From Ruminococcus sp. (GTDB lineage Bacteria; Bacillota; Clostridia; Oscillospirales; Acutalibacteraceae), in NCBI GenBank assembly GCA_017411385.1, contig JAFQQF010000024.1, positions 39,403 to 103,402 of the forward strand: a stretch of 64,000 bases of DNA. Reading direction: 5' to 3'. How positions within the stretch are numbered: the stretch's first letter is position 1; each line of letters begins with the position of its first letter. Below the pieces are notes generated by a model, which was given only the letters and a program-made list of their open reading frames with translations, was not told the DNA's origin and made no database searches. This document shows positions 24,826 to 47,198 of the stretch, in pieces. The position numbers and the translations under genes were made by a program.

Positions 24826-24884
24826 TTTTTAACCGTTGGGAGCAAACCTTATCTATCTACTGATATTTGGCGCTTTGCGCACAA

Positions 24885-25032
24885 ATATATAAATCGCTGT
24901 TCTAAAGACAGCAGGTTCGGCATTGCCGTATAATGGATTTTATCCGCCTGCCGAGGAAGAAGCATTTACAACGGGGTTAACCCACATTTGTAATCAACGC
25001 CTCTTCCTTATTGGAAGAGGCTTCCTTTTTTA
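24885..25032 (+). ncRNA. Ribosomal protein L10 leader with attenuator
   Basis: The 242-nt rplA-rplJ gap holds an L10 leader: CTGTTCTAAAGACAGCAGGT (24897-24916) pairs through AGCAGG/CCTGC with CGCCTGCCGAGGAAGAAG (24946-24963), as in the known Firmicute element that binds L10-(L7/L12). It ends in a terminator hairpin GCCTCTTCC/GGAAGAGGC (24999-25021) followed by a T run. L10 binding is expected to favour termination and so lower rplJL expression. The start is approximate. Confidence 0.85.
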
Positions 25033-25067
25033 TGAACTGCGTTATCATTTTAACGGAGGTGAAAACA

Positions 25068-45362: not shown

Positions 45363-45701
45363 ATGTTAGTTGCATTTATAATATTCTTTGTGGTTTTTGT
45401 TGTTCTTGCTGTGCTCACCTTTATGGGCAAGACGGCATCCTTTGTAACAGGTGGCAAAAAGGATGCAGAGGGTAATCCCATTTACGATGAAAAATCCCTG
45501 AGCAAGTTTCTTGGTGTGATTATGAGCTTGCTTGCTGTGTCAGCACTTTTTGGCTTTTTAGGCTACATAATTAAGGGCGCAACTTGGCTTATTATTGTAG
45601 CTCCGGTTATGTTCATTGCGGTGCTTTTGTTTGCTTTGGTATTTGTTAACACAGGCAACCGCTTTGTGCTCAAAGCAAAAGGCAAAAGATTCAAGAAATA
45701 A
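45363..45701 (+). CDS. Three-helix membrane protein, DUF3784-like
   Basis: This 112-residue protein has three hydrophobic helices (about 2-20, 50-70 and 75-95) and a polar loop (TGGKKDAEGNPIYDEKSLSKF) between the first and second. This layout resembles DUF3784 proteins of Firmicutes, whose function is unknown. The C-terminus is Lys-rich (KAKGKRFKK), so it probably faces the cytoplasm. CGGAGG lies upstream of the ATG. Confidence 0.7.
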   Translation: MLVAFIIFFVVFVVLAVLTFMGKTASFVTGGKKDAEGNPIYDEKSLSKFLGVIMSLLAVSALFGFLGYIIKGATWLIIVAPVMFIAVLLFALVFVNTGNRFVLKAKGKRFKK

Positions 45702-45747: not shown

Positions 45748-45823
45748 TGCTTTTGTGCAAGGTGAACTAAAACAGAGGTGAAATATTGTTGAAAATACAA
45801 ACTGTTAAATTTGCACAAAAGTA

Positions 45824-45852
45824 TTGCACAATCCAAAAAGATATAGTATAAT
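45824..45852 (+). promoter_or_regulatory. Promoter of the repeat-RNA locus
   Basis: TTGCAC (45824-45829), 17 nt, TATAAT (45847-45852). No long ORF follows on either strand until the next terminator. Confidence 0.8.
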
Positions 45853-45918
45853 ATAGTTGACAAAAGGAAAGGTAATAAATCAACTGAATAGATAAGTAAA
45901 GGAAAGGAGGAGATTCCG

Positions 45919-46038
45919 ATGATTGAAAGTTTTAGCTGTCCGGACTGTGCTTTGTCAGTGATAGCAAGTTCGGCAGAAATCAACAGTTTTGCTCGATACA
46001 ACTTCAAAAAGGAATGCTCTTCCGATTTTTGTTTTTAA
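45919..46038 (+). CDS. 39-residue cysteine-containing small ORF
   Basis: An ATG stands 7 nt after AAAGGAGGAG, one of the best ribosome binding sites in the window. The peptide starts MIESFSCPDC and ends ECSSDFCF, with four cysteines (7, 10, 33 and 38), the first two as a CPDC pair. It is the first ORF after a consensus promoter and precedes the repeat array. It matches nothing I know. It may be a small functional peptide, a leader peptide, or a chance ORF in a non-coding RNA. Confidence 0.5.
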   Translation: MIESFSCPDCALSVIASSAEINSFARYNFKKECSSDFCF

Positions 46039-46185
46039 CCGCGACCGGTAAAACAAAAAAGTAAAAGCAGAAAGCATCAAAATAAATCCCCTGCAATCTG
46101 CCTGTAAAAAGCAAACTGAAATCACTGTAAACATATATTCAGAACATACACCGACAGCTCAAAGCTTTCGGAGCATTAACCAAAA

Positions 46186-46560
46186 GGTATAAGCCAATGT
46201 ACAATTAAGATAAAACCAGACTGAAAAATCTGAAAAACGAGGTACGGTCCAATGTACAATTAAGTTGATTTCCGACTTATCTTAAGAAATGCGAGGTACG
46301 GTCCAAAAAGAACGTTAGTTTAATTTTCGAGCCGAATATAAACCAATTTATTAAGAGGTACAGACCAATGTACAATTAAGTTAAAACCTTAAGAATCTAA
46401 GAAACGCGAGGTACAGGCCAACACGCTACTTAACATAATATCGAAACGAACATAAACCTATAACTTATTTATTGAGGTATAGACCAATGTACAGTTAAGA
46501 TTTTACTCGGCAAATTTTAAGAAACGCGAGGTACGGGCCAACAAAGACTTTAATTGAATT
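46186..46560 (+). repeat. Alternating degenerate repeat array, probable structured RNA
   Basis: Seven units start with GGTAYRGRCCAA-like sequence at 46186, 46241, 46295, 46357, 46410, 46476 and 46530. Type A units (1, 2, 4, 6) continue ATGTACARTTAAG, then a variable stem-loop, and units 2, 4 and 6 end AAGAAAYGCGA. Type B units (3, 5, 7) lack the ATGTAC and share a CGAANATAAACC-like part. From unit 2 the order is A-B-A-B-A-B with a dimer period of 116-119 nt. The units are similar but not identical, unlike CRISPR repeats. Confidence 0.75.
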
Positions 46561-46570
46561 AACAGAACAA

Positions 46571-46608
46571 TAACCTCCCGCAGAGTTTTGCGGGAGGTTA
46601 ATTTTTTA
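46571..46608 (+). terminator. Strong terminator of the repeat-RNA locus
   Basis: TAACCTCCCGC/GCGGGAGGTTA, 11 bp, followed by ATTTTTTA. It stops just before the 3' end of the convergent uracil-DNA glycosylase gene. Confidence 0.9.
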
Positions 46609-46616
46609 GGCGGGGT

Positions 46617-47198
46617 TTAATTGTTCTCGTATGTGTGCTCGCAGATTTCTTCAATTTTATCTCTGAGTGTGAGAAAATCTTGGAAAGCCTCGGGCTTGCG
46701 TCTGGGGTCGCGAAGTATGGCGGCAGGGTGGAGCATGGGCATCATCAGCACGCCGTTTTTCTCAAAGAACTGTCCGTGCTCCTTGGTGATTTTGATGTCC
46801 TCTTTGATGAGTCTTGCGGCGGCAATTCTGCCAAGGCAGACTATAATCTTGGGCTTCATCAGAAGCACCTGATTTCTCAGCCAATCAAGGCAACAGGCAA
46901 CCTCCTCGGGTTTGGGGTCGCGGTTTTTGGGAGGTCTGCACTTGACCATATTTGCTATGTATATATTTTTGTTTCTGTCAAGGTCAACCGCCAAGAGCAT
47001 TTTGTCCAGAAGCTGACCTGCTCTGCCCACAAAGGGCTGTGCAAGCAAATCTTCGTTTTCTCCCGGTCCTTCACCGATAAACATAACTTCCGCATTCTTT
47101 GAGCCTGTGCCGAAAACTACGTTTGTTCGCTCCTTACAAAGCTCACATTTGTTGCAACATAGGCATTCCTCTTGCAGTTCGTCCCAAGTCTGAAACAT
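46617..47198 (-). CDS. Uracil-DNA glycosylase, family 4
   Basis: This 193-residue enzyme removes uracil from DNA, starting base-excision repair. Family 4 features are an N-terminal Fe-S cysteine pair (CNKCELC, about 15-21), the water-activating motif GEGPGENED (about 42-50), QPFVGRAGQLLDKML and the C-terminal MLHPAAILRDP (about 154-164). Further cysteines for the 4Fe-4S cluster lie near residue 87 (KCRPP) and 102-103. AAAGGAG lies about 11 nt before the ATG. Confidence 0.92.
   Translation of the reverse strand: MFQTWDELQEECLCCNKCELCKERTNVVFGTGSKNAEVMFIGEGPGENEDLLAQPFVGRAGQLLDKMLLAVDLDRNKNIYIANMVKCRPPKNRDPKPEEVACCLDWLRNQVLLMKPKIIVCLGRIAAARLIKEDIKITKEHGQFFEKNGVLMMPMLHPAAILRDPRRKPEAFQDFLTLRDKIEEICEHTYENN

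Follow-up and report, generated by a model that had tools for sequence, protein, structure and literature searches.

Serial minimal open reading frames and start-less Shine-Dalgarno sites in a putative untranslated RNA of Ruminococcus and its relatives

The 64-kb stretch of Ruminococcus sp. DNA analyzed here (the window) contains, between a DUF3784 gene (45363–45701, plus strand) and a gene of the uracil-DNA glycosylase superfamily (46617–47198, minus strand), a putative transcription unit whose 3′ half consists of alternating repeats. If these repeats encode no long protein, the question raised by the locus is what is conserved in them and what an RNA of this design could be for.

The locus and its repeat array

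All features of the unit lie on the plus strand. It is enclosed by a promoter-like site (TGCACA-16-TATAAT, 45825–45852) and an intrinsic terminator (46571–46606, with a 13-pair stem at 46571–46600; folding z −3.9 together with the last repeat), as a first-pass annotation of this DNA had stated. The promoter call is weak taken alone (11 promoter-like sites in a 3-kb stretch versus 6.1 ± 2.6 in shuffled sequence), but the site is aligned in the relatives described below; the same 3-kb stretch holds seven terminator-like sites versus 2.8 in shuffles. Boxes of the form TTGTGCA or TTGCACA extend from upstream of the −35 region into it (45753–45831), two or three of them being present at each of the six array promoters (that of the window and those of five relatives), and they are possibly the operator of some regulator. 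We infer that an RNA of approximately 740 nt is transcribed as an independent unit. The first-pass annotation had described this region as about 750 nt lacking a long ORF, a description that overlooked a 39-codon ORF (45919–46038) preceded by AAAGGAGG as well as four ATG mini-ORFs within the repeats.

Seven AGGTA-type units were identified at 46184–46570 in the order A-A-B-A-B-A-B. When one mismatch at most is allowed, AGGTAYRGNCCAA has eight matches in the 64 kb, seven of which are inside the array, versus an expectation of 0.71. Units 1 (46184–46238), 2 (46239–46292), and 4 (46355–46407) are of type A and each contain the mini-ORF ATG TAC AAT TAA (46197–46208, 46252–46263, and 46368–46379, respectively); unit 6 (46474–46527), also of type A, contains ATG TAC AGT TAA (46487–46498). 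By comparison of the units, units 3 (46293–46354) and 5 (46408–46473) are of type B, in which GAGGT is retained and the position of the ATG is occupied by AAA and ACA, respectively, and unit 7 (46528–46570) is a terminal B-type unit that has no ATG and runs into the terminator. The number of units, their alternation from unit 2 onwards, and the dimer period of 116–119 nt given in the first-pass annotation were all reproduced, with spacings of 116 and 119 nt. The array begins about 330 nt past the −10 box, and only the Shine-Dalgarno sequence of the leader lies near the 5′ end.

A two-unit pattern was matched by 6 of 161 genomes of the genus; in each, the matching contig has a single such locus, adjoining the site of the same glycosylase gene. 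The backward pattern had no matches in the 161 genomes. The unit with its A/B array is thus kept at the same locus in five further species; most of the named relatives of the window genome were assembled from gut metagenomes, those of ruminants among them. The arrays contain seven units in the window (genome G000), nine in G111, five in G100, nine in G088, seven in G165, and nine in G094, with near-identical recent duplications in the latter two. Types A and B are distinct throughout the six diverged species, and a start-less unit closes all six arrays. At the same locus, the RNA of genomes G020 and G141 is of a different kind, with a single A-type module at its start and the frames listed as ATG TAC AGT TAA and ATG TAC AGT ATA GGC TGC TGA, respectively. 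These two RNAs are homologous to each other, and when that of G020 was compared with the transcription unit of the window the module was the only match below an E-value of 0.05. No module was seen by eye at this locus in G010. G006 has, at a different locus, a diverged array whose leader ORF is 35 codons long; three of its units contain an ATG, with frames of six, one, and seven codons, and its last unit contains none. The same array stretch is present in G092. A search of the genus with a single-module pattern gave matches that, by eye, fall mostly within genes. Dispersed copies of ACAATGTACAATTAAC, perhaps a mobile repeat, were also noted in G145 and G061 (8 and 4 listed, respectively), and no link between these copies and the arrays was seen.

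Folding and reading frames of the repeats

In the first-pass annotation the A units were proposed to form GTAY/GTAC pairing followed by stems with compensatory changes. Individual window units do allow such stems to be drawn, yet they are not conserved. Across the 46 units of the six species, mean folding z-scores are −0.21 for the 27 A units, −0.07 for the 13 B units, and +0.24 for the six terminal units, no better than shuffles, and the GTAY/GTAC pairing is lost in relatives in which the second codon is AGA or TGG. A covariation analysis, which that annotation had itself suggested, was run on 21 of the 27 A units (G165_1, G165_6, G094_1, G094_4, G094_7, and G094_8 were omitted from the alignment), and the consensus consists of three pairs, none of which is changed on both sides. 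As mean z-scores over the 46 units are near zero and the 21 aligned A units show no covariation, the repeats were rejected as structured RNA.

What is conserved in the A units is a Shine-Dalgarno sequence followed by a very short frame. A stop codon follows the ATG within two to four codons in all 27 ATG-bearing A units of the six arrays (two codons in 11 units, three in 13, and four in 3), and the other two frames are open for 0 to 29 codons, one of them extending past the stretch that was read. Eleven different mini-ORFs are found, namely MYN, MYS, MYK (in three spellings, one of which ends in TGA), MYI, MYT, MW, MR, MWSF, and MYSL. When the 75 nt downstream were dinucleotide-shuffled, a stop within four codons was found in 11.4 ± 2.4 units (sd 2.45), with none of 1000 shuffles reaching 27; for the 20 distinct A sequences the count was 20 versus 8.2 in shuffles (0 of 1000), and with each distinct mini-ORF taken once it was 11 of 11 versus 4.6 (0 of 2000). 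These figures are not true probabilities because the units are related, and the agreement is due in part to shared descent and recent duplication. The stops, TAA and TGA alike, persist through substitutions and through changes of codon and of length, and the last sense codons vary.

The remaining 19 units (13 B and six terminal) have ACA, AAG, or AAA in the position of the ATG, and an ATG in none. They retain GAGGT without exception and are in this respect more uniform than the A units, in which GAGGT (12 units), AAGGT (10), and GAGGA (5) occur. The CCAA context and, in B units, a G at position 9 are invariant among the units compared. Using what we take to be the anti-Shine-Dalgarno sequence, mean duplex energies are about −7 kcal/mol for B and terminal units versus −5.2 and −5.9 in shuffles, and −5.9 versus −4.3 for A units. 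All 27 A units have the build of a minigene, in which a Shine-Dalgarno sequence precedes a start codon and the frame closes after very few codons; the B units keep the Shine-Dalgarno context but have no start codon. The array repeats are thus best read as probable translation signals rather than as a fold: A units would be translated, and the GAGGT sequences and duplex energies predict strong sites able to bind 30S subunits.

Conserved structure appears instead to be confined to the 5′ half of the RNA (45905–46023), which the first-pass annotation had not discussed. The leader Shine-Dalgarno AAAGGAGG and ATG, with the element GGAGGAGATWCCGRTG, lie at 45903–45921 and open the frame at 45919–46038, which is 37–39 codons long in all six species. 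In the three closest pairs of species, pN/pS values of 0.21/0.40, 0.21/0.21, and 0.38/0.66 (ratios of about 0.5, 1, and 0.6) show weak selection at the protein level, and the leader ORF was rejected as a conserved protein; its translation is possible, a protein function unsupported. A structured domain is predicted at 45906–46023, in which the arm containing the Shine-Dalgarno sequence (45906–45917) pairs with 46011–46023. In all six species GGAGGAGAU is predicted to pair with a strand roughly 100 nt downstream that reads CUCUUCC or similar, with domain z-scores of −2.5, −4.35, −2.15, −2.9, −5.1, and −1.95. Within the domain, a hairpin at 45936–45976 has 5 of its 12 pairs changed on both sides, and its covariation score is 0.372 versus 0.182 ± 0.042 in shuffles (none of 500 reaching it); slid versions score no higher than 0.150. 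In G020, G141, and G006, the corresponding stretches show no excess of folding over shuffled sequence (z −1.1, −0.2, and +0.4, respectively). The burial of the leader Shine-Dalgarno, taken with the TTGTGCA/TTGCACA boxes, suggests that both ribosome loading and transcription are regulated.

A related class of RNA in Clostridia

Across the order, the two-unit pattern was matched in 13 of 394 genomes, versus 1 of 394 (G462) for the reversed control. By eye, nine genomes other than that of the window have arrays (G431, G396, G304, G220, G041, G190, G209, G254, and G346); three further matches were rejected, G485 because it looks coding and G235 and G275 as judged from the matched letters alone. 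The mini-ORFs of these arrays, read by eye, include MRI, MGM, M alone, MKT, MRN, MAS, MNK, MNG, MRK, and MF; longer ones also occur, reaching 11 codons and, in a single case in G220, 13. Several side observations were made at these loci. A 6S RNA match (L208 2156–2363, plus strand; 47.9 bits, gathering score 46.4) lies near the G431 array, the modules of G304 (L211) include TTG TAC AAC TAA, a TTG-start form of the MYN mini-ORF of the window, and G346 (L219) has an array of GGAGGTACRGTCCAA units, nearly all without ATG, with GTGACCC motifs between them. A phage origin was considered and rejected: the two-unit pattern occurs in 23 viral contigs, but the first unit continues as CCAATG in none of the 27 matched segments listed, 18 of which lie in a frame open for more than 90 nt on both sides and nine of which do not.

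The array RNAs of G396 and G220 close with an ORF of 9–10 codons that contains TTAGATATCAAGAGCGAACAGAAGTGACC or a like sequence and whose stop lies inside the terminator stem. This 3′ element, which encodes MLDIKSEQK and a stop within the terminator, was used as a DNA query. With up to three mismatches it was found in 35 of the 384 order genomes, spread over 22 of 166 genera, and its backward control matched once; with up to two mismatches it was found in 16 of 367 genomes of the class, one of which is that of the window and 15 of which are among the 351 outside the order. Loci were fetched for 30 of the 41 order matches and 12 of the 16 class matches, one overlapping, giving 41 loci (L259 and L260–L299) with a common layout of promoter, 5′ minimal ORF, variable middle, and a 3′ MLDIKSEQK-like micro-ORF with its stop in the terminator. 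A copy is present in the genome of the window itself, outside the window (L259, G000:C10:71556–71584, minus strand), and starts with ATG AAG AGG TAA. Relatives of this copy are found in six species of the genus at what is apparently one shared locus (L060, L062, L058, L050, L101, and L094), all recovered by the 5′-element HMM and by the 3′-element HMM. A rule-based caller identified a promoter and Shine-Dalgarno sequence in 40 of the 41 loci and an ATG in 32, and the 5′ frames are two or three codons long in 29 of these 32, the others being 7, 13, and 13 codons; outside this count, the caller missed the visible ATG of L261, L271, L272, and L292 and found no promoter and Shine-Dalgarno for L276. 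Four loci (L260, L281, L282, and L287) have no ATG in the first module. The 5′ modules are exemplified by GAGGTACAGTCCAATG or AAAGGGTGATACCGATG, with GAGGTACAGTCCAATG followed by one or two codons and a stop. The distance from the −10 box to the 3′ element ranges from 169 to 669 nt in the 40 called loci, and 5 of the 41 (L260, L262, L263, L271, and L272) combine the 3′ element with modules that are, by eye, in tandem. Upstream of the class promoter, a divergent promoter-like site was seen by eye in L268, L269, L281, L282, L062, and L058; directly behind it lie a G+C-rich hairpin and a T run, which would give a transcript of about 50 nt.

An HMM of the 5′ element was built from 38 of the 41 loci (L281, L282, and L287 lack the element, and L260 is represented by its second module, AAG taking the place of the start codon in the first), including one locus from the genome of the window and no array of the genus; an earlier, smaller profile had used 24 5′ elements from 30 loci. 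Searched against the window plus five shuffled copies, the HMM returned the four A units and the leader start as its five best window matches (unit 4, E 0.017; unit 2, 0.055; leader start, 0.95; unit 6, 1.4; unit 1, 2.4), with single E-values that are weak, since the best shuffled match (0.32) beats three of the five. The conserved 3′ element is not detectable by HMM in the window array, the best weak match in the window (E 5.1) lying elsewhere. Homology of the array to the MLDIKSEQK class through its 3′ end thus failed in this search, and the idea that the last unit is a decayed MLDIKSEQK frame was not borne out. The array has a candidate match to the class in its 5′ module, and it differs in having no detectable 3′ micro-ORF and a leader ORF of 39 codons. 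The module and the loci that have both tandem modules and the 3′ element suggest descent of the array from this class, a relationship short of full-length homology.

Neither form has a match at the gathering score of Rfam 15 in the loci scanned. The Rfam search proposed in the first-pass annotation was run on the window and on eight array or sister loci and gave nothing at the gathering score in the array or in any of those loci; the only window match at that score is a ribosomal protein L10 leader (24884–25036). Sixteen further loci with RNAs of these kinds were also scanned, at a relaxed E-value, with none at the gathering score inside the transcripts. Two sub-threshold matches overlap the end of the G094 array. 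Such overlaps were taken as chance, namely ncr1575 and L10_leader at L010 2088–2205, mir-725 at L050 1150–1202, trpB at L209 1074–1196, and mir-2363 at the terminators of L259 and L284. We did not find the RNA class described in the open-access library searched or in Rfam 15.

Candidate roles of the array

The best explanation, to which we give an even chance, is an untranslated RNA that is coated and probably stabilized by serial ribosome sites. The 3′ half of the RNA would be a row of ribosome-binding modules rather than a folded RNA, in which the A module acts as a minigene with its stop two to four codons past the start and the B module offers the same Shine-Dalgarno context minus the start codon. 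By resemblance, the A module may be a tandem amplification of the 5′ element of the wider Clostridia class. With ribosomes or 30S subunits parked on it, an RNA without a long protein would be shielded from ribonucleases, and the leader, its Shine-Dalgarno being buried, would load ribosomes only under certain conditions. The modules, their minimal frames, the loss of ATG from B units, the synteny, and the predicted covarying 5′ fold are read directly from the sequences compared; transcription, translation, ribosome parking, and stabilization are inferred, and the final role of the RNA may be that of a regulator, a sensor of free ribosomes, or a ribosome sink.

Both halves of this mechanism have precedents. 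According to PMC3997798, a strong Shine-Dalgarno sequence, even without a start codon, stabilizes long untranslated RNA in bacteria without RNase E, and PMC8708949 proposes that leaders are protected in cis by the ribosomes that occupy minigenes. The A and B units are the minigene and start-less Shine-Dalgarno forms of this literature placed side by side. The minigenes of axe-txe (mg2) and of the LEE4 and LEE1 leaders, as presented in PMC8708949, have the same build of Shine-Dalgarno, AUG, few codons, and stop. Bacterial minigenes occur singly or in small numbers in the leader of a gene, whereas the arrays have three to six among start-less copies, followed by a terminator and no downstream cistron. 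STAB-SD and other 5′ stabilizers (the cryIIIA, ermC, atpE, and aprE leaders), as treated in PMC3997798, resemble the array in that a strong Shine-Dalgarno with or without a start codon protects even long untranslated RNA, but they are leader elements near the 5′ end, whereas those of the array are serial, internal (all seven in the window), and accompanied by minimal ORFs. This internal position counts against parking, as do the occurrence of arrays of the window's form in only 6 of the 161 genus genomes, the mini-ORFs of 6–13 codons reached in other relatives, and the first modules without ATG in four loci of the class; the weak E-values of the 5′ element and the failure to detect the 3′ element in the array count against the link to the class.

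Other readings of the same modules were weighed against ribosome parking. If the repeats mimic the ribosome-binding site of a target mRNA (GAGGTACRGNCCAA), they could act as a decoy that sponges an sRNA or a translational repressor protein, a reading we regard as unlikely. The invariance of the context beyond the Shine-Dalgarno (CCAA, and the G at position 9 in B units) would fit it, as would an apparently secreted-protein gene (L250, G000:C7:24332) whose ribosome-binding site GGAGGTACAATCCAATG is almost the array consensus; it leaves the stop within four codons in 27 of 27 A units unexplained, however, has no known partner, and has to contend with like contexts that recur in distant Clostridia. 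A sponge of the CsrB type is a distinct proposal and was rejected. CsrB-type RNAs carry many short repeated motifs with GGA in hairpin loops, whereas the array motif is GAGGT and its units form no hairpins; the comparison fails on both motif and fold, GAGGA opening just 5 of the 46 units. Somewhat less likely again than the decoy is titration in trans, in which tandem minigenes would, whenever the RNA is made, sequester ribosomes or initiator tRNA or exhaust the capacity of peptidyl-tRNA hydrolase, slowing growth on purpose. The bar minigenes of phage lambda, which are of like build, provide a precedent for such growth-slowing titration. A length of two codons, UAA stops, and a strong Shine-Dalgarno are reported in PMC8708949 to make minigenes toxic, and many A units fit this profile (11 of 27 have two codons), with boxes near the promoter suggesting regulation; yet the minigene studied in that paper acted in cis only and without growth inhibition, the B units would serve no purpose, the last sense codons of the mini-ORFs vary, and one chromosomal array offers few sites relative to the ribosome pool.

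Two further explanations are very improbable. Neutral tandem amplification of the leader ribosome-binding site, giving repeats without function, draws on the recent duplications in G165 and G094 and on a unit number that varies from 5 to 9 per array, but it has to reckon with A and B types that stay distinct in six diverged species, with a start-less unit at the close of every array, and with stops that are kept despite sequence change. The folded RNA favored in the first-pass annotation is the least probable of all: the covarying hairpin and the stem that buries the Shine-Dalgarno in the 5′ half, together with the z-score of −2.7 for the whole window transcript (20 shuffles), speak for it, but the repeats themselves neither fold nor covary.

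Parking of ribosomes along the array may be part of a more general design. Tentatively, and with rather less confidence than in parking itself, we propose a kind of Clostridia RNA shaped by ribosomes rather than by base pairing. Its 5′ end would carry minimal start-stop frames, tandemly arranged in some lineages, and its 3′ end a frame of nine codons that closes within the terminator; ribosomes occupying the two ends would then control how long the RNA, otherwise untranslated, persists or whether it is terminated. Of the forms of that RNA seen here, the window array would be the most elaborate. An RNA class without a match in Rfam 15 recurs in many families of Clostridia, and the finding is a warning that conserved repeats of intergenic transcripts can be translation signals and not folds. 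By interspersing minimal ORFs with start-less Shine-Dalgarno sites, the array makes it testable whether ribosomes serve as protective or counting particles on RNAs that lack long coding sequences.
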